Part shown: positions 2,351-48,559 of the stretch, in pieces
Position numbering within the stretch: position 1 is the first letter of the stretch
Layout of the letters: the number at the start of each line of letters is the position of its first letter
Assembly (NCBI GenBank): GCA_012103475.1
Contig: WLWS01000001.1
Span: forward strand, 186,001 to 250,000
From: Gammaproteobacteria bacterium
GTDB taxonomy: Bacteria > Pseudomonadota > Gammaproteobacteria > Eutrophobiales > Eutrophobiaceae
Direction: 5' to 3'
DNA length: 64,000 bases
The notes under the pieces: generated by a model
Databases searched by the model: none
Told to the model about the DNA's origin: nothing
Seen by the model: only the letters and a program-made list of their open reading frames with translations
Program-made: the position numbers and the translations under genes

Positions 2351-4528
2351 GTGAGTAATAATAATTTTGCCCGTGATACGCTGGAGGAAGGGAGTCTTTT
2401 CCTTTGGTATAGAATCAAGCATGTTCTGGGGAAAGGCGGTTTTGGCATTACCTATCTTGCCACCGACATCAATCTGGACAGAGAAGTTGCTATAAAAGAG
2501 TATCTACCGTCCGACATGGCTACCCGGGAAGACAGTGATCGTGTCGTTGCAGAACCCAACTATATTAATGAGTATGAAGATGGACTCAAACGTTTCATTC
2601 GTGAAGCCAGAACCATCGCCAAGTTTGATCATCCTAATGTGGTTAAAGTTCTCAATGTGTTTGAAGAAAACGGAACCGCCTACATGGTTATGGCCTATGA
2701 ACGCGGTAAGGATTTAAAGGAATTTCTGAAAACAAACAAGACACTGGGCGAAGATCAGTTATTAGAAATTATCGTCCCTATTCTTGAAGGCCTGGAACTG
2801 GTACATGAGGCCGGGTTTATCCATCGTGATATCAAGCCCGGAAACATCATGATTCGTGAAGATGGAAACCCCGTACTAATTGATTTTGGTTCTGCTCACG
2901 ACACAAAAAAGACTACCAAGCAGGTCACCACACTGGTTTCACCGGGCTTTACCCCACATGAGCAATACACCGGGCAAGCTGAAGCTCAGGGGCCATGGAC
3001 AGATATCTACAGTCTCGGTGCTACTTTATACAAGTGTATTTGCGGTAGAAACCCTGTCGATGCGATTACCCGTGGTAGCGCTCTTATCAAACAGGAGAAA
3101 GATCCACTTGTTTCTGCAGCTGATATAGGAGCAGGCAGATATAGTGATTCATTGCTTGAAGCGATAGACCACGCCCTTGAATTCAACGAAAACAAAAGAC
3201 CAAAAAACATATCTGAATGGACCAGCGAGTTACTCGGCACGACACCTTCTCAAAGAATATCTTCAGATATCAAGCAACAGGCAAACGCCAGACGAAAAAT
3301 CACACATAGCATCGGCGACACTCAGGAGATGGCGACCACACACGATCCAATCACGATTCCGGAGAATACCAACAGAACAACTTCAGGCCTGGCCATCGCT
3401 GCTATTATCGTACTCACAGCTGTTTTGGGTTTTGTGTTTCTTAATATTGATATTTCAGAAGAAGCAGATATTTCTGAGAATGTTACAACAGTGGCTGACA
3501 ACAGTAATACAGAGACAAAAGATCAGATCAACAACACCGATGAGTCTTCACGTGATTCATTTCAGAGCAGTGTTCAAGCCATCGCTAAAGTTCACAAACC
3601 AGGTGCTGTATTTAGTGACCGTCTGAAAATTGGTATTAGCGGACCATCGATGATTGTACTGCCAACTGGTGAGTTTAATATCGGTAGTCAAATCAACGAA
3701 GATGGTCGTAGTAGCAATGAGGGTCCCCAAAAGAAAGTAAAAGTTAGTCAGCCTGTTGCCATCAGCAAAACCGAAGTGACTGTCGGCCAGTTCAGAATGT
3801 TTGTTGAAGCAACTGGCTATGTTACCGAGGCCGAAAGAAACCCTGAACGTGGTTGCCGCATATTTGACGATGGCTGGCGTTGGGAGTCAGGCAGAAACTG
3901 GAAAGAACATCGTTACGAGCAAAGTGACAAGCATCCGGTGGTCTGTGTTAGTTGGGATGACGCTCTGGCTTATATAGACTGGCTGTCTCTGCAAACCGGC
4001 CAGCTTTACAGCCTTCCTTCTGAAGTCGAATGGGAGTACGCAGCCCGCTCCGGAAGTCAGAAGGCTCGATTTTGGGAAGAAGAGCACACAAACGCATGTC
4101 GTTTCGCCAACGTATCGGATCTTACGAGGGCTCAGATGAGTAACCTGAGTCGCTCTCCTGAGAATATTTTTGTCTGCGAAGATGGCTATGCCTATTCAGC
4201 ACCGGTAGCAAGCTTCGACGAAAATGCTTTTGGTTTTAACGACATGCTTGGTAATGTATGGGAATGGACCGCTGATTGCTGGAACGATAATTATGACAAC
4301 CTGCCACAAAATGGTCAGCCCAGATTAAACGGCAACTGCGATAATCGTGTCTACCGTGGTGGTTCCTGGGGTAATTTCCCCGACCTGATCAGAGCCGCAA
4401 AACGCGGTACCGACCCCAAGGATTTTCGCTATTACAACGTTGGCTTTCGTGTCAGCCGCATAATTCAACAAACCAACTCGAGCGCACTAGTCTCACAGGA
4501 ACTTGCTGCATCGAGACAAAAAATCTAA
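2351..4528 (+). CDS. Membrane Ser/Thr protein kinase with external SUMF1/FGE-like domain
   Basis: 725 residues with a GTG start at 2351, preceded by the Shine-Dalgarno GGTGGAG at 2334-2340. The cytoplasmic Hanks-type kinase domain spans residues 20-295. It has a glycine loop GKGGFG (28-32), the ATP lysine in VAIK (K49), HRDIKPGN (158-165) and DFG (178-180), so it should be active. One membrane helix (about 346-366) is followed by a linker and a formylglycine-generating-enzyme-type domain (about 431-705, motif GNVWEWTADCW). After RVYRGGSW the sequence runs GNFPDL, where true FGEs carry their catalytic cysteine pair, so this domain probably senses or binds rather than oxidises sulfatase cysteine. 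It heads a short same-strand group with the FimV-like gene and msrA. Confidence 0.88.
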   Translation: MSNNNFARDTLEEGSLFLWYRIKHVLGKGGFGITYLATDINLDREVAIKEYLPSDMATREDSDRVVAEPNYINEYEDGLKRFIREARTIAKFDHPNVVKVLNVFEENGTAYMVMAYERGKDLKEFLKTNKTLGEDQLLEIIVPILEGLELVHEAGFIHRDIKPGNIMIREDGNPVLIDFGSAHDTKKTTKQVTTLVSPGFTPHEQYTGQAEAQGPWTDIYSLGATLYKCICGRNPVDAITRGSALIKQEKDPLVSAADIGAGRYSDSLLEAIDHALEFNENKRPKNISEWTSELLGTTPSQRISSDIKQQANARRKITHSIGDTQEMATTHDPITIPENTNRTTSGLAIAAIIVLTAVLGFVFLNIDISEEADISENVTTVADNSNTETKDQINNTDESSRDSFQSSVQAIAKVHKPGAVFSDRLKIGISGPSMIVLPTGEFNIGSQINEDGRSSNEGPQKKVKVSQPVAISKTEVTVGQFRMFVEATGYVTEAERNPERGCRIFDDGWRWESGRNWKEHRYEQSDKHPVVCVSWDDALAYIDWLSLQTGQLYSLPSEVEWEYAARSGSQKARFWEEEHTNACRFANVSDLTRAQMSNLSRSPENIFVCEDGYAYSAPVASFDENAFGFNDMLGNVWEWTADCWNDNYDNLPQNGQPRLNGNCDNRVYRGGSWGNFPDLIRAAKRGTDPKDFRYYNVGFRVSRIIQQTNSSALVSQELAASRQKI

Positions 4529-36472: not shown

Positions 36473-37063
36473 TTACTGCCAGCCTTCTACTCCCGCCATG
36501 TTGGGCAATTCATGAGCAATTCCTTTGTGACAATCAATGCAGGTTTTCTCGCCAGTTGCCAGACCAGCTGAATGGGCTTGCTCAGCACGCTTACCTTGTC
36601 TGGTGAAATCCATATACTGAAAATTGTGACAATTTCGACATTCAAGCGAATCATTAGCCTTGAGTCTGTCCCATTCATGAGAAGCCAGTTCTTTCCGTTT
36701 AGCCAGAAACTTCTCGCGTGTGTCAATTGTACGAAATATGGTGCCCCAGACTTCTTTTGAAGCTTGCATTTTCCTTGCAATCTTGTCGGTCCAGTCATGA
36801 GGTACATGACAGTCTGGACAGGTAGCACGTACACCCGAGCGATTCGTATAGTGAATCGTTGATTTCAACTCCTGATACACATTGTTATTCATTTCATGAC
36901 AGCTGATACAAAATGTTTCGGTGTTGGTCGCTTCCAGAGCGGTATTGAAACCACCCCAGAAAATAATTCCGGCAATAAACCCCGCTACTGTCAAAACACC
37001 TAAACTGAAATATCGACTGGGCTGACGAATCGTGCCCCAGAGTTCTTTGAGCTTGTTAATCAT
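36473..37063 (-). CDS. napC: NapC/NirT-type tetraheme cytochrome c
   Basis: 196 residues, membrane anchored by one N-terminal helix (about 20-40). Four heme motifs are visible: CISCH, CPDCH, CRNCH and CIDCH. It transfers electrons from menaquinol or ubiquinol to NapB/NapA. It is the last gene of napEFDABC, three bases after napB. Confidence 0.97.
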
Positions 37064-37066
37064 GCG

Positions 37067-37510
37067 CTATTTTTTTACGGCCTTGTTATCCAGAATTGCA
37101 TCAATATCCTGGAAATCATTTTCGACCAGAGGTTTGACACTTTGTTGTGACACGTGGCACTGATTGCAGAAATAGCGCCGTGGTGAAACTTCGGCCAGAA
37201 AGTTTCCATCTCTATCCATGTAATGAGTAACACTCACCATGGGTGCCTGTGAGTCAACCACCTGTCTTCTGCTATGACAGGAGAGACATTTATTGCTGTT
37301 TAAATCGACACGATAATTTTGTGTCTTGTGCGGGATCGTCGGTGGCTGCATCGGATAGTTGCGCTTTCTTTTAAGGTCTTTATTTTCTTCGTTACCCAAA
37401 CGCGGAGCCTCCTGTTCCGACGCTATATCTGATGAACGTAAGTTGGCTATATAAGGTTCGGCGACCGTGATAAGAGGAATAAAAAATATGAGTAATAGTA
37501 ACTTTTTCAT
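37067..37510 (-). CDS. napB: Periplasmic nitrate reductase, diheme cytochrome c subunit
   Basis: 147 residues with a cleavable signal peptide (ending VAEP). Two heme-binding motifs, CLSCH and CNQCH, and the conserved PPTIPHKTQNYRVDLNSNKC region identify NapB. It feeds electrons from NapC to NapA in the periplasm. It lies 10 bases downstream of napA. Confidence 0.97.
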   Translation of the reverse strand: MKKLLLLIFFIPLITVAEPYIANLRSSDIASEQEAPRLGNEENKDLKRKRNYPMQPPTIPHKTQNYRVDLNSNKCLSCHSRRQVVDSQAPMVSVTHYMDRDGNFLAEVSPRRYFCNQCHVSQQSVKPLVENDFQDIDAILDNKAVKK

Positions 37511-37520
37511 GACGATATCC

Positions 37521-40016
37521 TCATGCGGCTCTTATTCTTACTGCACATTTTTTGAAATCAGTTTGTTTGGAAAGTGGATCAGTGGCATCCAGTGTTACTT
37601 TGTTGATCAATTGGCTGGCATCAAACCAGGGCACAAAAATCAATCCCCGGGGAGGCTTGTTTCGACCACGCGTTTCTACTCGTGTCCGGATATTACCTCT
37701 TCTTGACTCCACTATTATCTCGCTACCACGACGAACACCCAGTTTGTTTGCGTCATCCGGGTGCATGAAAGCGACAGCATCGGGAAAAGCCTTGTAAAGC
37801 TCAGGCACGCGTTGCGTCATAGAGCCTGAATGCCAATGTTCTAGTACACGCCCGGTCGATAACCAGAATGGATACTCATCATCCGGAGCTTCAGCTGGCG
37901 GTTCGTATGGCAAGGCGAAAATAACGGCCTTGTTGTCTTTGTGCCCATAGAATTGATAACCGGTTCCCGCTGTAACATAAGGATCACTGCCTTCCTTAAA
38001 ACGCCATCGCGTTTCCTTGCCATTTACCACGGGCCAGCGCAATCCATGTTCGCGATGATAGGTATCGAAGTCAGCGAGATCATGAGCATGACCTCGACCG
38101 AAACGCGCATACTCCTCAAACAGGCCTTTTTGCAGATAGAAACCAAAGTCACTCGATTCATGGTTCGAGTAGCCTTCATCTATATCCGACAGAGGATATT
38201 TATCAACTTCACCGTTTTTGTATAGAACCTCATAAAGCGTTTTGCCTTTGTACTCTGGGTTCTGCTCCAGGATATCTTTTGGCCATACCTCGTCTGTCTT
38301 AAAACGCTTGGAAAATTCAACCACCTGCCAGACATCCGATTTGGATTCACCGGGTGCATCGATCATTTGATGCCAGAATTGTGTACGTCTTTCTGCATTA
38401 CCGTAAGCCCCCTCTTTTTCTACCCACATTGCTGTCGGTAACACCAGATCGGCCGCTTCCACAGTAACCGTCGGATAGGCATCGGAAACAACAATGAAGT
38501 TGTCCGGGTTACGATAACCGGGCAAGCCTTCCTCGTTTATATTGGGCCCGGCCTGCATATTATTATTTACCTGCACCCAGTAAGCATTGAGCACACTGTC
38601 CTTCAACATACGGTTTTGTAATACAGCATGGAAACCCGGTTTGGCAGGAATAACTCCCTCCGGAATATTCCAGATTTTCTCGGCAATATCCCGGTGTTCT
38701 TTTTTTGTTACCACCATATCAGCCGGCAAACGATGAGAAAACGTGCCTACTTCCCTCGCTGTGCCACAGGCCGAAGGTTGTCCGGTTAGTGAAAACGGGC
38801 TGTTTCCGGGAGTAGAGATTTTCCCGGTTAGCAGATGAATATTGTAAATGAGGTTATTACACCACACGCCTCGGGTGTGTTGATTGAAACCCATGGTCCA
38901 GAACGAGGTAACTTTAGTCTTCGGATCTGCATAAAGCTCTGCTATTTTTCGCAGAGTCTCACCTTTAACGCCGGACAGTTTCTCTACGTACTTTTCATCA
39001 TACGTCGACACATACTTCGCATATTCATCAAAATCAATTAATTTCGCGCCACCGGCCTTGTCCGCATTTTTCGCGGCCTTTTGCAGAGGATGCTCTGGTC
39101 TCAAACCGTAACCGATATCATCGTTACCTAACTTGAATTTAACGTGTTTATCAATAAAGGACTTGTTTACTTGTCCGCTTTTGATGATGTAATTCGCAAT
39201 ATAATTAAGGATTGCGAGGTCCGTTTGTGGAGTAAATACGGCCGGAATATCGGCCAGATCGAAGCATCGGTGTTCGAAAGTTGATAGTACGGCGACCTTG
39301 ACATGTGGCGCACTTAAACGACGGTCCGTCAGCCTTGTCCACAAAATGGGGTGCATCTCCGCCATATTTGAGCCCCATAAAACAAATGCATCCGCCTGTT
39401 CCAGATCGTCGTAGCAGCCCATTGGTTCATCGATGCCAAAAGTACGTATGAAGCCACCCACAGCGGACGCCATACAATGACGTGCATTTGGATCAATATT
39501 ATTTGAGCGGAAACCTGCTTTGTACAGCTTGGAAGCTGCATACCCTTCCCAGACCGTCCATTGCCCGGATCCAAACATACCAACGGCAGATGGTCCTTTC
39601 TCCTTCAATGCCTTTTTAAATTTTTCTTCCATGATATCGAAAGCCTGCTCCCAACTCACCGGAGTGAAATCACCTTCCTTATGAAACTTGCCATTCTTCA
39701 TTCTCAGCAAAGGCTGCGTCAGACGATCCTTTCCATACATGATTTTTGACAGGAAATAGCCTTTAACACAATTCAGACCACGATTAACCTCAGATTTAAT
39801 ATCGCCATGGGTCGCCACGACTTTGCCATCTTTCACAGCAACGTTAACACTACATCCCGTTCCACAGAATCGACAGGGTGCTTTGGCCCACTTTAGTCGT
39901 GTATATTCCGAATCAGTAATCAGGTTAGTTGCCGAGACCGGAACGGCTACTCCTGCTGCCGCTGCTGCGGAACTGGCTGCACTGGCTCTGATAAAATCAC
40001 GCCGGGTTATTTGCAT
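37521..40016 (-). CDS. napA: Periplasmic nitrate reductase, molybdenum catalytic subunit
   Basis: 831 residues from the ATG at 40016, which has AGAGGAA correctly placed upstream and opens the protein with the Tat motif TRRDFIRAS; a longer frame to 40052 is not used. The [4Fe-4S] site is CRFCGTGC with the last ligand in LNCVKGYF. The molybdenum ligand cysteine is in [13 protein letters not shown]. The rest follows the bis-MGD molybdopterin fold. Nitrate is reduced to nitrite in the periplasm for respiration or redox balance. The start lies inside the end of napD (20-base overlap). Confidence 0.97.
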
Positions 40017-40284
40017 AGTGTATTTCCTCTTGCAGTGAATCAATTGATTCACAATGGTGATAACAAAGTTGTGTCGATAGAACCCCTTGCCATTTGTTTA
40101 TTACATCAATTATCGAAACCAGTTCAGATTCCGAGTCGAGTTCCAGAACCAGAACAACTTTGCAAACTCCCTCATCCGTATAGTATTCGGATCTTGGTAA
40201 AGCGCTGACCTTATCTATTACGTCATTCTTGTATATCGGTTTAACCTGAATAATCAGGCTGACAATGTGTATGTCATTTTCCAT
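39997..40284 (-). CDS. napD: NapA Tat-signal chaperone
   Basis: 95 residues. The ferredoxin-like fold of NapD is apparent in [11 protein letters not shown] and the central [13 protein letters not shown], with family-typical short length. It binds the NapA Tat signal until the cofactor is inserted. The gene overlaps napA and begins two bases after napF ends. The C-terminus is slightly extended. Confidence 0.9.
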
Positions 40285-40286
40285 AG

Positions 40287-40562
40287 CTAAACTTTTGTTA
40301 GCTCACTTATCGTGATTGAACCAACTGGGCAACAGTCAATGCAGTCCCGGCATAAGGTGCAGTGGTCTAGACTGATGGTTGGTACTGAGATTCCGTTTTG
40401 TACGTGACTGAATTTGATTGCACTTTCTTCACAAACATCTTTGCAAGATGTGCAATAAACACCCTTGTAATTCAGGCAACTACTGTCAATACCAGTCTTA
40501 CTGGCAAGCTGCCCCCTGAGAAATGCCCGCCGACTCTCATTTATTGTGTGTTTCCCGTTCAT
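40287..40562 (-). CDS. napF: NapF-like ferredoxin, shortened form with two clusters
   Basis: 91 residues. It begins with the NapF-type RRAFLRGQ element. Two cysteine sets follow: Cys29-x7-Cys37-x2-Cys40-x3-Cys44 and Cys68-x2-Cys71-x2-Cys74-x3-Cys78-Pro. Typical NapF is about 160 residues with additional clusters before these; here the N-terminal cluster region is missing. NapF assists maturation of cytoplasmic NapA. It lies three bases after napE. Confidence 0.85.
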   Translation of the reverse strand: MNGKHTINESRRAFLRGQLASKTGIDSSCLNYKGVYCTSCKDVCEESAIKFSHVQNGISVPTISLDHCTLCRDCIDCCPVGSITISELTKV

Positions 40563-40954: not shown

Positions 40955-41530
40955 ATGTATCGCCTGTTCTTTTTTCTATTCAGCCTGTTATCTCTATCCT
41001 ACTTACTGACCATTTACAGTAAGGAAAACAATATCGTGGAACTGGATAAGACTGATACAGTAAGATCAAGCAAAACGCCTGAAGTAGAACAGAAAGATAC
41101 GATTCCTTCTGAGAAGAATAATTCTCAACACACTGTAAGCACTATATCGCGTTTCAGCAGTTTTGATCCCGAAAGCAGTACAAACATAGTTTATCTTAGC
41201 AACACTGAATCAAGCTCCGATAATACCGGTAAGCTATATATATGGAAAACAACCGGCTCGGTAACCATCATTAGTATGGAACCGCCACCTGAAGGAATAG
41301 AGGCAAGGATAATGCTGTATTCAGACAATAAAAAAGAAGTGAAAAAAGCCGCCAATGAAATAACATCTGTCGGTAACAATAAGTCTGATAATAATTTTTC
41401 ATTAGCTGATCAGCCACTTAAGGTTTACACACCAGATGGCTTACGTGAAATGATCAGATATAGTGAAGAAATAGGGGAAATAATAGAATTACGAGGAGAG
41501 GAGCTCAACGAACTAGTTAAATTATTATAG
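40955..41530 (+). CDS. Unknown exported or membrane-anchored protein
   Basis: 191 residues. A hydrophobic N-terminus (residues 2-21) looks like an uncleaved anchor or signal. Next comes a polar, low-complexity linker (about 25-60, rich in Ser, Thr, Lys). A compact region (about 70-185) begins with TNIVYLSNTES and has a strand KLYIWKTTGSVTIISM; the tail is acidic and helical. I do not recognise a family. It is divergent from nap with the FNR box between them, and convergent with the pseudokinase gene, which stops 30 bases away. Function unknown. Confidence 0.6.
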   Translation: MYRLFFFLFSLLSLSYLLTIYSKENNIVELDKTDTVRSSKTPEVEQKDTIPSEKNNSQHTVSTISRFSSFDPESSTNIVYLSNTESSSDNTGKLYIWKTTGSVTIISMEPPPEGIEARIMLYSDNKKEVKKAANEITSVGNNKSDNNFSLADQPLKVYTPDGLREMIRYSEEIGEIIELRGEELNELVKLL

Positions 41531-41560: not shown

Positions 41561-43438
41561 CTATTTTAAATATCTTTTGCACTCATCGGGAAGATGTTCC
41601 AGTCCAAGACTAATAGAACCACATATCCAGTTAATATAACCTGTCTCTGATTCTTCACTTCCATATAGTGCGAATGATTGCCCTGCCAACTGTGGCAGAA
41701 TTTCTTCCTCATTTCTAAAAGTGACAACAATAAGCTGTTTTATAACAGAAATATTTTTGACATATTTATAATTTTTTCTGCTGCTCTGACTTACAAGCTC
41801 ACTAATATCATTAGGCCAGTTACCGTTTTTTGTTTTGTATTTATGTACTAATCGGCTCACTTCCTTCACCGCAAAAAGAGCCTCCTCCATCTGAACACCT
41901 GCGATTTTTTCTCTTTCGAGCAGGCTGATATAAGACCCATAACAGAGAACACCCAGCAAAATTGAAGCTACAATGGCTGATTTCTGTGAAACAAATCCGA
42001 CCTTCGATAAATATTTTCTCTGCTCACGAACTGAAGGATGCTTACGACAGGCTTTTCCGATCATTCTCATGATATTGAGATAATAAATATAGTTTCCAAA
42101 CAGTGCCAAAAACAAAGATATAGCCAGTAAACTGGCAATCGCCGTGAAATCTATTGTTGGACTGATTAGCAGGAATTCCTTATTTTTCAGGTTATTTGCA
42201 CTGAAGTGATGAAAGAAAAAAACAAAACCGGCTACTATCACAGGCATGACAGTAAACGCCATTAGATACATTTTTCTATAAACCATCCAGATAATACTGA
42301 ATAGCAGGGCACCATAATTCAGGCGAATTCGTGGTATATAAGCTCTTTCATCTTGATGCATGAAAGCTGACATATAGTAAGCCTGTCTTTTTCCACCAAT
42401 ATAGGATCTGGCTAGTTTGTACTTCGTTTCATTGTTTTCTAGAGTATCGCTTTCATTCAATGAAGACTCGCTTTCGCTGGAAGCAATCTTAATGCCTAGT
42501 GTTTTATCGAGATCTACACCAGCACTTTCGTTATCTCTGTTTTCGTCTGACGATAACTCCAGTATTTCTCCTAGCCAGCCACCTATCGACTTCGGTCTGT
42601 CATTTGGTTTTAGTTTCAGAGCGTGGTCAATAGCGCAGAGTAATTGCCTGGAGTACTTGTCATTTGAAGGTTTTACCAATGTCTCTACTAAATCGATCCC
42701 GTACTGTTTCTGCGATTTATAACGCTCCAGTGCAGTCGGTGGTTTTTCTCCACATATACATTCATATAGAACAGCAGCAATGGAATAAGCATCAGACCAG
42801 GGCCCGATAAACTCTGGATCATCTGAATAGAATTCAATCGGTGTGTAGTTATCTCTGGCTAATGCCTTAACACCCTCTCCTGTTTTATGGTTTGCGTAGA
42901 GAGAACCGATATTACAAAGTATTGGAGAGCCATCTTTACGAATCTTTATACTTTGTTTGTTGACGTTCAGGTGCAAACAATCATTTTTGTGAAGAACTCG
43001 AAAGGCATCAAGCAGTGGAAAAATAATATTCTTGATATCTTCATATTCAAGTACTGATGAGTGTGACAGAACTTCAGCTAGCTCGAATGCCTCCTCGAAT
43101 TCTTCAACCAGATAAGCGGTATTATTTGCAAAAACAAGGTCTGTTATACGAGGTATATTGGGATTATTGATTCCAGCTAATATATTGGCAGTAGACTCAA
43201 AACGCTTTATACCTTGTTTGAAACTATCGGAGTTCTGACTATCAGTAAGCACGAGCATACCCAATTCATCTCGTTCAACTATAGAATGAGGGCAATACTC
43301 AGTTAAAAGGAAATCTTTTGAATGCTGATCACATGCCAGGTAACTATTTGAAAGAGTGCTCGTACCCGTTCGGGATTTAATAGTAAAGCGATCTACCTGA
43401 CGACCCTGATTTAACTCCTTCAATTTATCTAACTCCAT
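41561..43438 (-). CDS. Pseudokinase-DUF2628-pilin-like membrane protein
   Basis: 625 residues. Residues 15-290 align by eye with the kinase encoded at 2351 (shared GPWxDxYS, LYxCICGxxP, AIDHAL and RPKxIxxW), but every catalytic element is lost. The ATP lysine is Thr46 (LLTEY), HRD is HLN (156-158) and DFG is NIG (176-178). After a linker, about 370-480 contain a DUF2628-like segment (LNYGALLFSIIWMVYRKMY) and several membrane helices. A further helix (about 500-517) leads to a C-terminal type IV pilin-like domain: the N-terminal helix, KNGNWPNDISELV, and finally GYINWICGSISLG with LPDEC. It may be a signalling scaffold linked to a surface or envelope structure. Function is inferred only. Confidence 0.75.
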   Translation of the reverse strand: MELDKLKELNQGRQVDRFTIKSRTGTSTLSNSYLACDQHSKDFLLTEYCPHSIVERDELGMLVLTDSQNSDSFKQGIKRFESTANILAGINNPNIPRITDLVFANNTAYLVEEFEEAFELAEVLSHSSVLEYEDIKNIIFPLLDAFRVLHKNDCLHLNVNKQSIKIRKDGSPILCNIGSLYANHKTGEGVKALARDNYTPIEFYSDDPEFIGPWSDAYSIAAVLYECICGEKPPTALERYKSQKQYGIDLVETLVKPSNDKYSRQLLCAIDHALKLKPNDRPKSIGGWLGEILELSSDENRDNESAGVDLDKTLGIKIASSESESSLNESDTLENNETKYKLARSYIGGKRQAYYMSAFMHQDERAYIPRIRLNYGALLFSIIWMVYRKMYLMAFTVMPVIVAGFVFFFHHFSANNLKNKEFLLISPTIDFTAIASLLAISLFLALFGNYIYYLNIMRMIGKACRKHPSVREQRKYLSKVGFVSQKSAIVASILLGVLCYGSYISLLEREKIAGVQMEEALFAVKEVSRLVHKYKTKNGNWPNDISELVSQSSRKNYKYVKNISVIKQLIVVTFRNEEEILPQLAGQSFALYGSEESETGYINWICGSISLGLEHLPDECKRYLK

Positions 43439-43480: not shown

Positions 43481-44893
43481 TTATAGCAAAGTTTTTTGAG
43501 GATCGAGCGCGTCTTTCAACAGTCCTCCCAGTCTGGCCATTCCCTCAGGTAATTCCGAATTTACAAGAACATCATGATAATTGGATCTGGCATGAGTAAT
43601 ACCGTAACCTTTTTCCCTTACCTTTCCAATGATCTCATTGATACACCGCTCGACCTGTAGTTTTTCTTCTGCGTCAAACAGTATGTAATTTCGTTTAATC
43701 ATTGATCGCCAGCCTACAACAAATTCACTCAAATCATCGAAGCCATGTGTCTCCAATACTCCGGTAATTATCCTGGTCAGCTGCAGTGCTTCCTTCCCAT
43801 CTGGTGGGCAGGCTATACCGAGATCAAATCGATAGCGACCTCGCCAGTGGTTCAAGTTATCGAAGCCATCTGCAGGTCTGCCACGCATAAGTCCTTCCCT
43901 GCTCATCCAGATCTGATCACCTTTTCGGTCATCATCTGTAAATAATCTGGCGCCCTCAATACTGCTCAGTGCTTCACTTACCATAGGCCACAATAATTCC
44001 ACATTGTCAGGCGTGTTATAGAGAGCAGCATAAAGATTCCATTCACCTAAACTCAAATCCGCTTTCAATTTATTCATATCCGGAGCCTGGGAGCCCGAAT
44101 AATCTTCACGCTTAATATAGGGAATGGCATCCAGCAATGGGTTACTGATCACAACGGAATTAGGCACAATAACGTTTATTTTCAGATCTCTGAGGATCTC
44201 GACCGCGGCAATAATATCACTCTGATTCGGCATACTCAGCATAAAGGGCTTATACGCTGGTGGCGCCGGCATCAACCATAATCCGATTTTAGTGATGATG
44301 CCGAGTGTCGACTGGGTGAATATCGGATCCACCCAGGGGCCGTAGCCCCATTTAAATAATTGCCAGATATTATTCCCCGGCAAGGCACCCATAGTAGTTC
44401 TTACCAGTTCACCATCTGCCAACATAACTTCCATACCACATTGCATCATCATATGATCGCCATATGGGGTATAGCCGAATTCGTGATTAGCTATGCTATC
44501 GGACACTGAATTCAACTGATTCCTGTCGCAATCGATCCACAGGCCGGTGTTATTACTTTCAAGATACTCATACAGCTGCTTGTATGTAACACCAGGTTCT
44601 ATAAGAGCATAAGCAGATCGAGTGTTCACTTCGAGAACCTGATTCAGATTCTTTAAATCGACAATAACAACGTTATCATATTGTTGATTTCCAGTTGGGT
44701 TCTGACCATGCACATGCAATGAGAAATTGCCTTTAGCTGCTTCTTTAAGAAGTTCTCTTAACTGATCAAGACTTTCCGGCGCGGTGACACCCAGAATATT
44801 TTCACCGTATTGGTTGCGATAATATCGCGACTCACCTGTTTCTCTGCTTATCACAGCCAATCTGGGCAAATTTTCGTCAGCTTTTTCGCTCAT
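43481..44893 (-). CDS. VAO/4-cresol dehydrogenase-like flavoprotein, second paralogue
   Basis: 470 residues, clearly paralogous to the 521-residue flavoprotein in the same operon. Shared blocks include YALIEPGVTYKQLYEYL, GYTPYGDHMMMQCGMEVMLADG, FTQSTLGIITKIGLWLMPAPP and a DALDPQKTLL end. The early FAD-binding loop is reduced (HVHGQNPTGNQ in place of the normal TGKNFAYGGPAP), so flavin binding may differ. Members oxidise para-alkylphenols and 4-hydroxybenzyl alcohols and pass electrons to a cytochrome c. It may be a second substrate-specific subunit or a non-catalytic partner. The start overlaps the VdcD-like gene by four bases. Confidence 0.85.
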   Translation of the reverse strand: MSEKADENLPRLAVISRETGESRYYRNQYGENILGVTAPESLDQLRELLKEAAKGNFSLHVHGQNPTGNQQYDNVVIVDLKNLNQVLEVNTRSAYALIEPGVTYKQLYEYLESNNTGLWIDCDRNQLNSVSDSIANHEFGYTPYGDHMMMQCGMEVMLADGELVRTTMGALPGNNIWQLFKWGYGPWVDPIFTQSTLGIITKIGLWLMPAPPAYKPFMLSMPNQSDIIAAVEILRDLKINVIVPNSVVISNPLLDAIPYIKREDYSGSQAPDMNKLKADLSLGEWNLYAALYNTPDNVELLWPMVSEALSSIEGARLFTDDDRKGDQIWMSREGLMRGRPADGFDNLNHWRGRYRFDLGIACPPDGKEALQLTRIITGVLETHGFDDLSEFVVGWRSMIKRNYILFDAEEKLQVERCINEIIGKVREKGYGITHARSNYHDVLVNSELPEGMARLGGLLKDALDPQKTLL

Positions 44894-45132
44894 TTGTTTT
44901 TATGCAGTTTCGCTGGTGGAATATTATGCGGATATTGATCCGGCTGATCCGGGTCTACTTGAAACCACTCGTCTCTTTTTTCATAGTCAATCGATTCAGT
45001 TGGTTCACTGTCACGCCAGGTAAAAGCGCAGCGCTGGCAATAAAACACCTTCCAGATAATTTCGCCTGCTTCCCTGCCTTCGTGCTCGAGCCGACAATGT
45101 TTTTCTTCAGCCTGACAACGTGGGCAGCTCAT
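44890..45132 (-). CDS. VdcD-like small subunit of hydroxyarylic acid decarboxylase
   Basis: 80 residues. A zinc-ribbon pattern (CPRC at 3-6 and CQRC at 32-35) followed by AFTWRDSEPTES matches the D subunit of vanillate/4-hydroxybenzoate decarboxylases (VdcD/ShdD), found only beside the UbiD-type C subunit. It overlaps the UbiD gene and the second VAO gene by four bases each, so the three are translationally coupled. Confidence 0.85.
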   Translation of the reverse strand: MSCPRCQAEEKHCRLEHEGREAGEIIWKVFYCQRCAFTWRDSEPTESIDYEKRDEWFQVDPDQPDQYPHNIPPAKLHKNK

Positions 45133-46613
45133 GATTTTTCCGCCCGTCTTTGCAATTCCTGAACCATTCGTGCCAGCTCATCGATTTCAGCTCCGGAAGG
45201 CGGCATGACTAATTTTGAGTCAGCGCCAACTGGATCCGGTGCCATAAAACTGGTTGCATCTATAATGAGACGATGCCCTTTGCCCGGGACTTCAGCAGCG
45301 GGATCAATTAGCACCAGAGGCATATTCGGTATCACGTGAATATCGCTTGCTCGAGTGCGCGTTGACAGGGCCCACATCACTTCGTTGAGATCAAAAGGAT
45401 CAACAAACTCATCAACCATGATAAGGTTTTTCAAATACATTAAACCGTGAGGAGTACTCAGCGCCCGTAAAGCTACCGACTTCGCAAAACCGGCAAAGCG
45501 ATTTTTCACGGAAATAATACCCGTCAATCCATGTTGATAAAGTGCGTTCACCGCTACCACTTCGGGAAAGCTCTCTTTCAACTGCGAATAGACAGGCGCG
45601 CAGGTATTCAGACCAATAAGCGTATCGTGTTCGGTCCATCCGCGACCAATATAAATGTTTTCAAAAATCGGATTATCACGGTGAGATATAGCCGTGATTT
45701 TGAAAAGCGGCACATGACGGACACCACTGTAACTACCCGGAAACTCGCCAAAAGGTCCTTCCAGTGTCCGCTTGTTATTGATCAATTCGGCTTCGATGAC
45801 TATTTCGGCACCGGCCTGAATATCAAGACCATTACCGGATGTGGTTAATTGAATCGGGCTGCCCATCATTTGCGAGGCATAGCCGTATTCGGATTCGTCG
45901 TAATTTATCGGAGTAGCAGCAAACATTGCCATAGCCGGATGGTTTCCGATCATCACCGCAATTTTTAATGGCAGATCTTCGGCTTCCGCCGCACGTATCA
46001 TGTGTGCCATATCATGCGAAGGAACGGACAGAAGACTGAACTGATCCGGTCCATGCACCTGGATTCTGTAGATACCAACGTTTTGTTTATCAAAATTCTC
46101 AGGATCGAGCGGATCGCGACTGACGATATTGGCTTTGCCAATATAGAAACCACCGTCCGATTCATTCACCCGGTAAAGTGGAATTACATCGTAAAGATTG
46201 ATATCAGATTCGATTCGGTTCTGGTTAACCGGAGCATCTTCAGCCTTAATCCTGTCGATAAGCGGTTTATCTGATCCCCAGCGACCAATCAGTTCGTAAA
46301 ATAATTCTTTAATACTGGTACCTTTGGGGTAGCCAAGTAATAGTGCAATATTGCTAAAACTGCCATGTACGCCAAACACCATTCTTCTGCCGGGGTAACC
46401 GCGAATGTTATCAAACATGATTGCCGGCGCGCCCATAGAATCCCGGCCAGAGGCCACCGCAATTTTACGAATGTCTGGTTCTGGCATAACCGCTTCCGGC
46501 CACTTGATAAACTGCCCATGCTCGGACAACAGGTCAAGGTAATCACGCAGACAGTGAATACGCTCTGCTACCGCTTTGGCTTGTGACGAGATGCTTTTAT
46601 TTTTTCCTGCCAT
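45129..46613 (-). CDS. UbiD-family non-oxidative aromatic acid decarboxylase (VdcC-like)
   Basis: 494 residues. UbiD blocks are visible: the prenyl-FMN/metal region IYRIQVHGPDQFS (R183) and KRTLEGPFGEFPGSYSG with Glu285 and Glu290. With the VdcD-like gene adjoining, the likely reaction is reversible decarboxylation of a hydroxybenzoate or vanillate to the phenol. It requires prenylated FMN from a UbiX-type enzyme, which is not encoded in the window. It starts six bases after the cytochrome c gene ends. Confidence 0.92.
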   Translation of the reverse strand: MAGKNKSISSQAKAVAERIHCLRDYLDLLSEHGQFIKWPEAVMPEPDIRKIAVASGRDSMGAPAIMFDNIRGYPGRRMVFGVHGSFSNIALLLGYPKGTSIKELFYELIGRWGSDKPLIDRIKAEDAPVNQNRIESDINLYDVIPLYRVNESDGGFYIGKANIVSRDPLDPENFDKQNVGIYRIQVHGPDQFSLLSVPSHDMAHMIRAAEAEDLPLKIAVMIGNHPAMAMFAATPINYDESEYGYASQMMGSPIQLTTSGNGLDIQAGAEIVIEAELINNKRTLEGPFGEFPGSYSGVRHVPLFKITAISHRDNPIFENIYIGRGWTEHDTLIGLNTCAPVYSQLKESFPEVVAVNALYQHGLTGIISVKNRFAGFAKSVALRALSTPHGLMYLKNLIMVDEFVDPFDLNEVMWALSTRTRASDIHVIPNMPLVLIDPAAEVPGKGHRLIIDATSFMAPDPVGADSKLVMPPSGAEIDELARMVQELQRRAEKS

Positions 46614-46619
46614 TTCCTA

Positions 46620-46997
46620 TCAGGTCTTTGTAATTGTACTGAGATATTCGGCCAGCGCTTCCAGCTCCGCGTCACTAATCTCTGAGGGTCGAAATGGTGG
46701 CATCAACAGTATTCCCTGGCGAACTATTGTTTTCACATACACGGCCTGTAAATCAGTGCGTTTGGTAAGTACGGCCTTATCTTCACCAAGACGTATTCCG
46801 AGTCTCATGGTTCCGGGATGTCCGGGACCTTCGGCATGGCAGGCTATGCAGTACTGCTTATACAGCTCTGCACCGTCAATTGGCACTTCCGCTTTTGCCA
46901 CAGCGACTGTGTCTACGCTCTGTTTCTCTGAACAAGACAAGAGTAAACAAGTTATAAAAGTAACCAGCAATGCTCGAAAAACACCTGCCTTCATCAT
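46620..46997 (-). CDS. Monoheme cytochrome c, electron acceptor of the VAO-type dehydrogenase
   Basis: 125 residues from the ATG at 46997, overlapping the TGA of the flavoprotein gene (ATGA). An upstream-extended frame inside the flavoprotein gene is not needed, because this start opens directly with a lipoprotein signal (lipobox LLLSC). The heme site is CIACH, and the axial methionine is probably in ILLMPPFRP. Position and size match PchC/eugenol-hydroxylase small subunits, which dock onto the flavoprotein. Confidence 0.9.
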   Translation of the reverse strand: MMKAGVFRALLVTFITCLLLSCSEKQSVDTVAVAKAEVPIDGAELYKQYCIACHAEGPGHPGTMRLGIRLGEDKAVLTKRTDLQAVYVKTIVRQGILLMPPFRPSEISDAELEALAEYLSTITKT

Positions 46998-48559
46998 TTC
47001 CGCAAGCTCTCTGGCCATATCCCCATTTTTCCCGGAGACAGAACCCCCTGCGGATCGAGTGCATCCTTGATTCGATGATGCATCTTCCACAATGCACCAT
47101 CGTTCCAGCTATAGGTGGCCGCAATCTGATCCATGAAATCCAGATGTGCGCGATACTCGCCATAGCCCAGCTTCGCATGATCTTCAATTAACTTACCAAA
47201 ACACTCATGTGCCCGTTGTCGCTCTTCATCGTCTGTGCGATCGAAAACCAGCATGAAAACATCCAGTAGCTCACGCCAGCCGACAAGAAATTCACCTATG
47301 TAATCGAAGCCGTATTCATGCGCACGATCGCGAATAGTGGTGAATTGTTTCATAGCATCTTCACCGGTTGCGGGTGAACGCGGGGCGAAATCAATATGTG
47401 CGCCGCTACCAACCCAGTTCATGATGCTGAATTCGGCCATATTCGGGATACCCTGCATCAGTTGAGCACGGTATTTCCATGCAGGATCGTCAGGCCGATC
47501 ACCTTCAAAATAAAACTTTGCACCGGGAATACTGCGAAAAGCTTCTTCCAGAATTTTCCAGTTATTGTCCATAAGTGGTGGCGGGCCATAGAGGGCGCCA
47601 TAGAAATTCCACATGCCAATATTCAAGTCCTCGGCAATTTTCTTCAAGGCGCTGGGTGGTGCCGGCCCTTTGCCCAGATAGTACTGTTTTTTGGTGACAC
47701 GTTGGCAGGCATCCCAGATTAAACCAACTGTGGTTGCCGCATTCGGGATGAGCATATTCAGTCTTAACGGAGCCACCACTTCGGTAATCTGATAAAGATC
47801 CTCTTCTTTAGGAAAGGTCACCATGTAAGGTCGATAACCCGGCGGTTCAGGCATTAACCAGATTCCGATTTTTGTGACAATGCCAAAATTCGATTGTGTA
47901 AACAGGCCTTCGACTGCCGGTCCGTGTCCGTATTTGTGTAAGTGTGCTGTGTTACTCGTCGAGGCCGAGCCCATACCGGTCTCCACCACGCTGCCATCTG
48001 CCAGCACAACCTGCATACCACAGTTCATAAGAAAGTGATCGCCATAGGGCGTATAACCTGCGCCATGTTCAGTCAGATTGCCGAGCACACTCCCCCATCC
48101 CGGTGCCGCCGGATCGATCCATAATTTACTCTTCTTCGCTTGCAGGTAGTTATACAGATCAAAATAACTGACACCCGGCTCAACAACTGCATAGCCATAC
48201 TTTTCATTGACCTCGATAATACGGTTCATGCGTTTTAAATCGAGCACCACGTACCCGGCTTTACGCGGGGCCGGGCCACCGTAAGCAAAATTCTTTCCGG
48301 TAGAGATAGTCCATAAAGGCACAACATATTTGCGAGCGACGGCAAGAATCTTTTGTATTTCTTCCACTGATTCCGGTGCAATTGCAGCGGAAGGCATGTG
48401 CAGCTCGTCCTTTGTCGTTGCATAGACATCGCGATAAGCACGCAACTCGTTGATATCGTCAGTGTAGACTCGATCCTGTCCCAGTATTTCCCGTAACTCC
48501 GCGACTGCGGATTCAAACTGTTCGAGAGTCAGTGACTCTGGTAACGCTTTATCACTCAT
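46994..48559 (-). CDS. 4-cresol dehydrogenase/VAO-type flavoprotein subunit
   Basis: 521 residues, matching PchF/eugenol hydroxylase in size. The PCMH FAD domain has WTISTGKNFAYGGPAPRKAG and GAGYTPYGDHFLMNCG; the cap domain has FTQSNFGIVTKIGIWLMP, and it closes with DPQGVLSPGKMGIW. Members hydroxylate the para-alkyl carbon of phenols through a quinone methide, then oxidise the alcohol to the aldehyde. With the UbiD/VdcD genes downstream, a 4-alkylphenol-type substrate is likely. No cleavable signal is seen, as in several relatives. It overlaps both neighbours by four bases. Confidence 0.9.
   Translation of the reverse strand: MSDKALPESLTLEQFESAVAELREILGQDRVYTDDINELRAYRDVYATTKDELHMPSAAIAPESVEEIQKILAVARKYVVPLWTISTGKNFAYGGPAPRKAGYVVLDLKRMNRIIEVNEKYGYAVVEPGVSYFDLYNYLQAKKSKLWIDPAAPGWGSVLGNLTEHGAGYTPYGDHFLMNCGMQVVLADGSVVETGMGSASTSNTAHLHKYGHGPAVEGLFTQSNFGIVTKIGIWLMPEPPGYRPYMVTFPKEEDLYQITEVVAPLRLNMLIPNAATTVGLIWDACQRVTKKQYYLGKGPAPPSALKKIAEDLNIGMWNFYGALYGPPPLMDNNWKILEEAFRSIPGAKFYFEGDRPDDPAWKYRAQLMQGIPNMAEFSIMNWVGSGAHIDFAPRSPATGEDAMKQFTTIRDRAHEYGFDYIGEFLVGWRELLDVFMLVFDRTDDEERQRAHECFGKLIEDHAKLGYGEYRAHLDFMDQIAATYSWNDGALWKMHHRIKDALDPQGVLSPGKMGIWPESLRK

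Follow-up and report, generated by a model that had tools for sequence, protein, structure and literature searches.

The window, meaning the whole stretch of 64,000 nucleotides analysed here, carries a gene for a protein of 625 residues in which a kinase-like domain, a membrane module with a DUF2628 block, and a type IV pilin-like domain follow one another in a single chain (Table 1). A sequence-only reading of this DNA had given the coordinates of the gene correctly and had left out its strand, which is minus; the residues on which it relied, T46, HLN (156-158), NIG (176-178), and the GYINWIC...LPDEC tail, are each found in the translated frame. The gene is present as a single copy in its genome (G000, 4.19 Mb, 17 contigs), which also encodes several more distant kinase paralogues with about 30-32% identity to the fusion protein. 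One kinase paralogue (G000:C5:52150-53059, L005/L006) is broken near its HRD motif into two frames that overlap, by a frameshift or an assembly error, and a similar gene in G002, a genome of the same genus, is one intact frame (L077:1946-3880). About 37 kb from the fusion gene, the window also encodes, at 2351-4528 (plus strand), an intact kinase of the PpkA type, which keeps every catalytic motif and carries an FGE-sulfatase (SUMF1-like) domain at its C-terminus.

Table 1. Positions in the window of the fusion gene, its parts, and the convergent partner gene (residue numbers are those of the fusion protein).
Feature	Position	Strand	Evidence
Pseudokinase-DUF2628-pilin-like fusion gene	41561..43438	-	ORF, ATG start, 625 aa; full-length colinear orthologue L009:1498-3414 (minus strand), 45% identity
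PpkA-type kinase-fold domain, residues 9-294	42557..43414	-	phmmer 5hnv; Foldseek 5hnv; pLDDT
Thr46 in place of the beta3 (VAIK) Lys	43301..43303	-	alignment to 30 intact homologues; G002 orthologue has Lys
HLN (156-158) in place of HRD; Ser163 in place of the catalytic Asn	42965..42973	-	same positions in G002: HLS, Asp
NIG (176-178) in place of DFG	42905..42913	-	same position in G002: GFG
Low-confidence linker, residues 295-345	42404..42556	-	pLDDT <50 for 295-311 and 314-334
DUF2628 block, residues 363-458	42065..42352	-	PF10947 E 3.6e-7, above cut-off; orthologue 6.9e-7
Predicted TM helix 1, residues 391-409	42212..42268	-	hydropathy 2.24; model helix 391-416
Predicted TM helix 2, residues 429-447	42098..42154	-	hydropathy 2.23; model helix 431-466
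Predicted TM helix 3, residues 489-507	41918..41974	-	hydropathy 2.07; model helix 485-538, running into the long pilin alpha-1 helix
Type IV pilin-like domain, residues 513-621, conserved Cys606/Cys620	41576..41902	-	hhalign; Foldseek 5vxx; orthologue Pfam Pilin
Convergent partner gene, 191 aa	40955..41530	+	N-terminal membrane anchor and DUF4124-like, probably extracytoplasmic region

The fusion gene and the partner gene lie tail to tail, with a gap of 30 bases in the window and 14 bases in G002, where the partner orthologue (L009:905-1483, plus strand) holds the equivalent convergent position (37% identity by BLASTP, E 3e-37). The partner protein contains a single hydrophobic helix at its N-terminus, along with a DUF4124-like segment (LYIWKTTGSVTIISMEPPP). 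No DUF4124 (PF13511) match was obtained for 40955-41530, and a related protein of genome G035 scores 21.6 bits against a cut-off of 22, hence the term "DUF4124-like" only. Further out, the two genomes have different genes: nap and FAD-oxidase/UbiD genes flank the pair in the window, and in G002 the neighbours, identified only by their sequence, resemble an EamA transporter, cysE, and valS. Among 116 relatives, the partner was found only in the two pseudokinase genomes and in one distant DUF4124-like relative; it is missing from G001, a third genome of the genus, where the pseudokinase was not found either. Because the partner is retained while the other neighbours differ, and is missing where the pseudokinase is missing, this two-genome sample suggests that the two genes form a functional pair; a convergent arrangement need not imply a functional link.

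Adjoining the partner gene, periplasmic nitrate reductase-like genes occur in the order napF-D-A-B-C (36473-40562, minus strand). At 43481-48559 (minus strand), a UbiD-like decarboxylase gene lies between two genes for FAD-linked oxidases, accompanied by a small gene for cytochrome c and by a short Cys-rich ORF; this looks like an aromatic-compound degradation cluster.

Domains, membrane topology, and the pilin fold

Matches obtained with Pfam, phmmer, Foldseek, and hhalign support the kinase fold, DUF2628 membrane module, and pilin fold that had been proposed from the sequence, and these matches lie well beyond chance. In the window protein, Pkinase (E 7.3e-14) and DUF2628 (31.0 bits, and 30.1 bits in the orthologue, versus a cut-off of 23) are above the Pfam cut-off, and Pilin (PF00114) stays below it when this copy is taken alone (E 0.016; 16.6 bits versus 22). 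In the G002 orthologue, all three domains exceed the cut-off (Pkinase 1.1e-19, Pilin 1.8e-6, DUF2628 as in Table 1).

Structure prediction with fold comparison recovered both the kinase fold and the pilin fold. The protein kinase-like fold (PF00069, PpkA type) extends over the whole N-terminal domain: among solved structures, PpkA 5hnv is the closest by sequence (phmmer E 1.6e-27, residues 9-294), and PpkA structures are also the top Foldseek matches of the full-length model (5hnv E 6.4e-20, TMt 0.84). In this model, pLDDT is about 90 or above for most of residues 11-290 and low in the linker 295-334.

Three helices stand out clearly in the hydropathy profile of the window copy, and the loop 448-488 ahead of the third holds nine Lys/Arg residues. 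The orthologue has a fourth hydrophobic stretch (368-386), and pLDDT is low across much of 365-450, which leaves the helix count in this region somewhat doubtful. The topology is probably N-in, C-out, with a cytoplasmic kinase domain which, followed by three helices, would place the pilin domain on the periplasmic side. This orientation is favoured by the Lys/Arg-rich loop before the third helix and by the paired conserved cysteines 606 and 620, which presumably form a disulfide. It is favoured as well by DUF2628 relatives, which bear cytoplasmic-type domains N-terminally (DnaJ, zinc ribbon, GYF-like) and a periplasmic SPOR domain C-terminally.

The C-terminal model (residues 479-625) has a mean pLDDT of 83, and Neisseria type IV pilins come first in Foldseek (5vxx E 3.7e-7, probability 1.00, TM 0.73). 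Because the alignment behind this model included real pilins, a separate hhalign comparison was made, in which a profile of the two orthologues (505-625) matched a profile of four true pilins with a probability of 97% (E 3.4e-11). Genuine pilins are also matched when the C-terminal profile of the two sequences is used as the query, for example L066, which has a GFTLVELMIVV leader (E 6.4e-7). By fold and by sequence similarity, the domain thus belongs to the type IV pilins (PF00114). It lacks the short leader and the G|FxxxE prepilin site of a functional fibre subunit and starts after residue 480; neither orthologue has a prepilin leader or Glu5 (GFVSQ/GFVSK). A prepilin-like cleavage between G481 and F482 was considered and rejected, as the site aligns with the GGTS motif of DUF2628 and Glu5 is missing; the GGTS motif aligned with GF 481-482 is also present in DUF2628 proteins that have no pilin domain.

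Pilin domains of this kind are not confined to the fusion protein. The DUF2628-TM-pilin module occurs without a kinase in several proteobacteria: L048 and L062 combine a zinc ribbon (below the cut-off in L062) with DUF2628 and pilin, L061 has DUF2628 (slightly below the cut-off) and pilin, and L085 shows profile similarity to the module and no Pfam match. A leaderless pilin domain (PF00114) is C-terminal in an M48 peptidase (L115:697-2004) and in an 806-residue protein (L116:1895-4315). Judged by these matches, the pilin fold recurs as a tail domain of non-pilin inner-membrane proteins. No viral relative of the C-terminal module was confirmed.

These results bear on whether the protein is an accessory of type IV pili or type II secretion, that is, a non-assembling mimic of a minor pilin that docks on the inner-membrane platform while the pseudokinase scaffolds cytoplasmic factors. 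The pilin-like domain is of the PilA (PF00114) family, and the genome encodes a PilA-like major pilin, PilS/PilR-like genes, a PilC-like protein, and a PilD-type peptidase. A pilus role is conceivable because of these pilin and Pil-type genes, to which nothing ties the fusion gene. It is nevertheless rather unlikely, given that pilus genes flank neither copy, in the window or in G002, that the prepilin cleavage site and Glu5 are missing, and that an equivalent pilin domain is carried by unrelated membrane proteins, such as the M48 peptidase. The coupling to a pilus structure put forward in the sequence-only reading finds no direct support: a leader, Glu5, and an adjoining pilus gene are all missing, and the conserved neighbour is a DUF4124-like, probably periplasmic protein.

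Loss of the catalytic motifs and conservation in a second species

The kinase domains of the window protein and its G002 orthologue were aligned with those of 30 other homologues, and all 30 retain the glycine-rich loop, VAIK Lys, alphaC Glu, HRD Asp, catalytic-loop Asn, and DFG Asp. In the two orthologues, the glycine loop is replaced by GTSTLSNSY (window) or CKSNASIIY (G002) and the alphaC Glu (position 83) by Thr or Ile, respectively, and HRD Asp, catalytic Asn, and DFG Asp are lost from both. The VAIK Lys is replaced in the window copy and kept in G002. At the VAIK Lys, HRD Asp, and DFG Asp of an active Ser/Thr kinase, the window copy thus has T46, N158, and N176, and the orthologue K, S, and G. 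The inactivating changes listed by the sequence-only reading are all correct; the list was incomplete, as the glycine loop, alphaC Glu83, and the catalytic Asn163 are gone too, and the three-motif loss applies to the window copy, being shared by the orthologue for HRD Asp and DFG Asp and not for Lys. Descent from an active PpkA-type Ser/Thr kinase is proposed. Since the losses are common to both species, the dead state is probably older than their split, and on this comparison the loss of Lys seems confined to the window's lineage.

The domain might be a pseudokinase by motif only and retain nucleotide binding or a different chemistry, as SelO and SidJ do. ATP use can survive motif loss in SidJ, SelO, and the DYD kinases (PMC12599244), and the orthologue, with Lys46 kept, might still bind nucleotide. 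We regard this reading as improbable for the fusion protein, because glycine loop, alphaC Glu, HRD Asp, Asn, and DFG Asp are jointly absent from both members and the window copy is also without the Lys.

A full-length match was found in one of 193 related genomes, namely, G002, from residue 7 to 625 and with identical domain order. A scan of genome contigs with the full protein returned only a generic kinase and stand-alone or zinc-ribbon DUF2628 proteins, and the C-terminal module was not found in G001 (84% complete). The two orthologues differ by 0.41, 0.32, and 0.65 at the first, second, and third codon positions and by 0.68, near saturation, at 4-fold sites of conserved residues. The C-lobe, DUF2628 block, TM3 region, and pilin segment each show differences ordered as in the whole gene; in the N-lobe (1-150), the values are 0.38, 0.41, and 0.64, with 38% amino acid identity. 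The codon-position pattern, together with near-saturated synonymous sites, indicates purifying selection and not decay, so that catalytic loss is maintained under selection in the two members compared. Close homologues with intact Lys, HRD Asp, and DFG Asp, which in the sequence-only reading would have marked this copy as simply decayed, were not found: the sole full-length homologue lacks HRD Asp and DFG Asp.

The faster evolution of the gene (45% identity, versus 84% for the orthologue pair of an active kinase-Sel1 paralogue in the same two genomes), its narrow distribution, and its not being found in the third genome of the genus would suit a paralogue of an active receptor kinase that is decaying and on its way to being lost. 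Such decay is more improbable still than retained nucleotide binding or a different chemistry, because the frame is intact in both species (625 codons in the window copy) despite near-saturated synonymous divergence, because the codon-position bias is typical of selection, and because the losses common to both species place the dead state before their split. A decaying gene was rejected on the codon-position constraint and the intact orthologue, and by this one comparison of two members the protein would count as a conserved pseudokinase. Since a second species retains the entire design, the gene is probably not defunct and encodes a functional signalling adaptor.

A decoy or regulator of an anti-phage kinase pathway is highly improbable: the weak PADLOC matches that point to it (mad6 3.5e-19, PD-T4-6) are generic for kinases, the NCBIfam MADS6 score is 51.5 versus a cut-off of 460, and no defence genes were recognised near the fusion gene. 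Identity with an anti-phage kinase was likewise rejected.

Comparison with known systems

The kinase domain aligns from end to end, at about 30-35% identity, with Serratia PpkA (5hnv) and with proteobacterial kinases that have Sel1, FGE-sulfatase, or TPR tails, and conserved blocks are shared around the active site. Unlike these kinases, the fusion protein has lost the active-site landmarks, has another C-terminal architecture, and shows no T6SS link.

EssB/YukC is the transmembrane pseudokinase scaffold of type VII secretion (PMC12599244). Like it, the fusion protein is transmembrane, with a cytoplasmic pseudokinase degraded in three motifs and in the glycine loop (PMC12599244). The fusion protein differs in its kinase subfamily, its three TM helices with DUF2628, its pilin-fold extracytoplasmic domain, and the lack of a type VII system; searches of Pfam and NCBIfam up to an E of 1 found no EssB match, and the neighbouring genes are unrelated. 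A Pkinase-DUF2628-YARHG protein of Firmicutes (B0MGE2) was described in 2012 and read as cross-membrane signalling (PMC3355149). It shares the N-terminal kinase domain, DUF2628, and extracytoplasmic C-terminal domain (PMC3355149); the fusion protein has a pilin fold instead of YARHG and a pseudokinase instead of the described kinase, and the hosts are very distant. In our judgement, EssB/YukC is the closest functional analogue and Pkinase-DUF2628-YARHG the closest architecture, and the fusion protein is assigned to neither.

L048, L061, L062, and L085 are homologous to the fusion protein from DUF2628 via TM3 to the pilin tail, and N-terminally they have either a zinc ribbon or no recognised domain, and in no case a kinase. 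The fold and the C-terminal disulfide-loop motif are shared with type IV major pilins (PF00114; Neisseria PilE); unlike them, the fusion protein has no prepilin leader, N-terminal methylation site, or Glu5, and its pilin domain lies behind membrane helices.

Other pseudokinase families were considered and rejected. The GLW family has GLW for HRD and a bulky hydrophobic residue for Lys (PMC12599244), where the fusion pair has HLN/HLS and T/K. CP1 is linked to COG3899 and has no TM helix, and DLHK retains the HRD Asp and has no TM helix either (PMC12599244); the fusion protein has no such Pfam domain, has lost the HRD Asp, and has three TM helices.

The sequence-only reading knew of no described protein with this combination. 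Within what could be searched, this holds for the three-part fusion and not for its two-part combinations: the claim is qualified because kinase-free DUF2628-TM-pilin proteins exist and a Pkinase-DUF2628-YARHG protein has been on record since 2012 (PMC3355149). A literature search for DUF2628 together with pilin returned no paper. The three-part fusion appears to be new among transmembrane bacterial pseudokinases and was found in only two species of the genomes searched.

A candidate signalling adaptor in the envelope

On balance, the fusion protein is probably a conserved non-catalytic transmembrane adaptor made of a cytoplasmic pseudokinase, a DUF2628 connector, and a periplasmic pilin-fold domain. 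The connector, with three helices oriented N-in and C-out, would join the two outer domains. The pilin fold would not build fibres here but would act, anchored to the membrane, in sensing or binding, probably together with the DUF4124-like envelope protein encoded tail to tail. A periplasmic binding or assembly event would alter the pseudokinase in its conformation or oligomeric state, so that it would recruit or allosterically regulate a cytoplasmic partner. As to the identity of this target, our guess is that it would most plausibly be one of the intact PpkA-type kinases of the same genome, or their substrates.

A more specific version is offered tentatively and is itself doubtful: a two-protein envelope unit, in which the periplasmic pilin-fold receptor and the DUF4124-like partner control a pseudokinase that tunes PpkA-type kinases independently of phosphorylation. 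If true, an inactivated receptor kinase and a pilin put to a new use would together form a phosphorylation-independent receptor.

Few studies have dealt with bacterial pseudokinases, and no compared family of a 2025 review has such an active-site pattern or architecture (PMC12599244). Here, one chain unites pseudokinase, membrane connector, and pilin fold beside a conserved neighbour, and it offers a concrete, testable case both of non-catalytic transmembrane kinase signalling and of a pilin fold outside fibres.

DUF2628 itself occurs in 14 of 193 relatives and in 72 of 399 genomes of the phylum, the two samples overlapping in some genomes. Among the long-frame DUF2628 hits examined in these 193 and 399 genomes, a fusion to a kinase was found only in G000 and G002; the remaining hits are SPOR, GYF-like, Sel1, DnaJ, zinc-ribbon, or ABC-permease fusions or have no recognised partner. 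Fusions to SPOR, DnaJ, and apparent ProW-type ABC permeases are found at L109, L110, L111, L112, L067, L046, L050, L122, and L124. Many DUF2628 fusions in these genomes have an N-terminal cytoplasmic-type domain, DUF2628, and a C-terminal extracytoplasmic domain, a layout that hints at the role of DUF2628 and suggests a general membrane connector.
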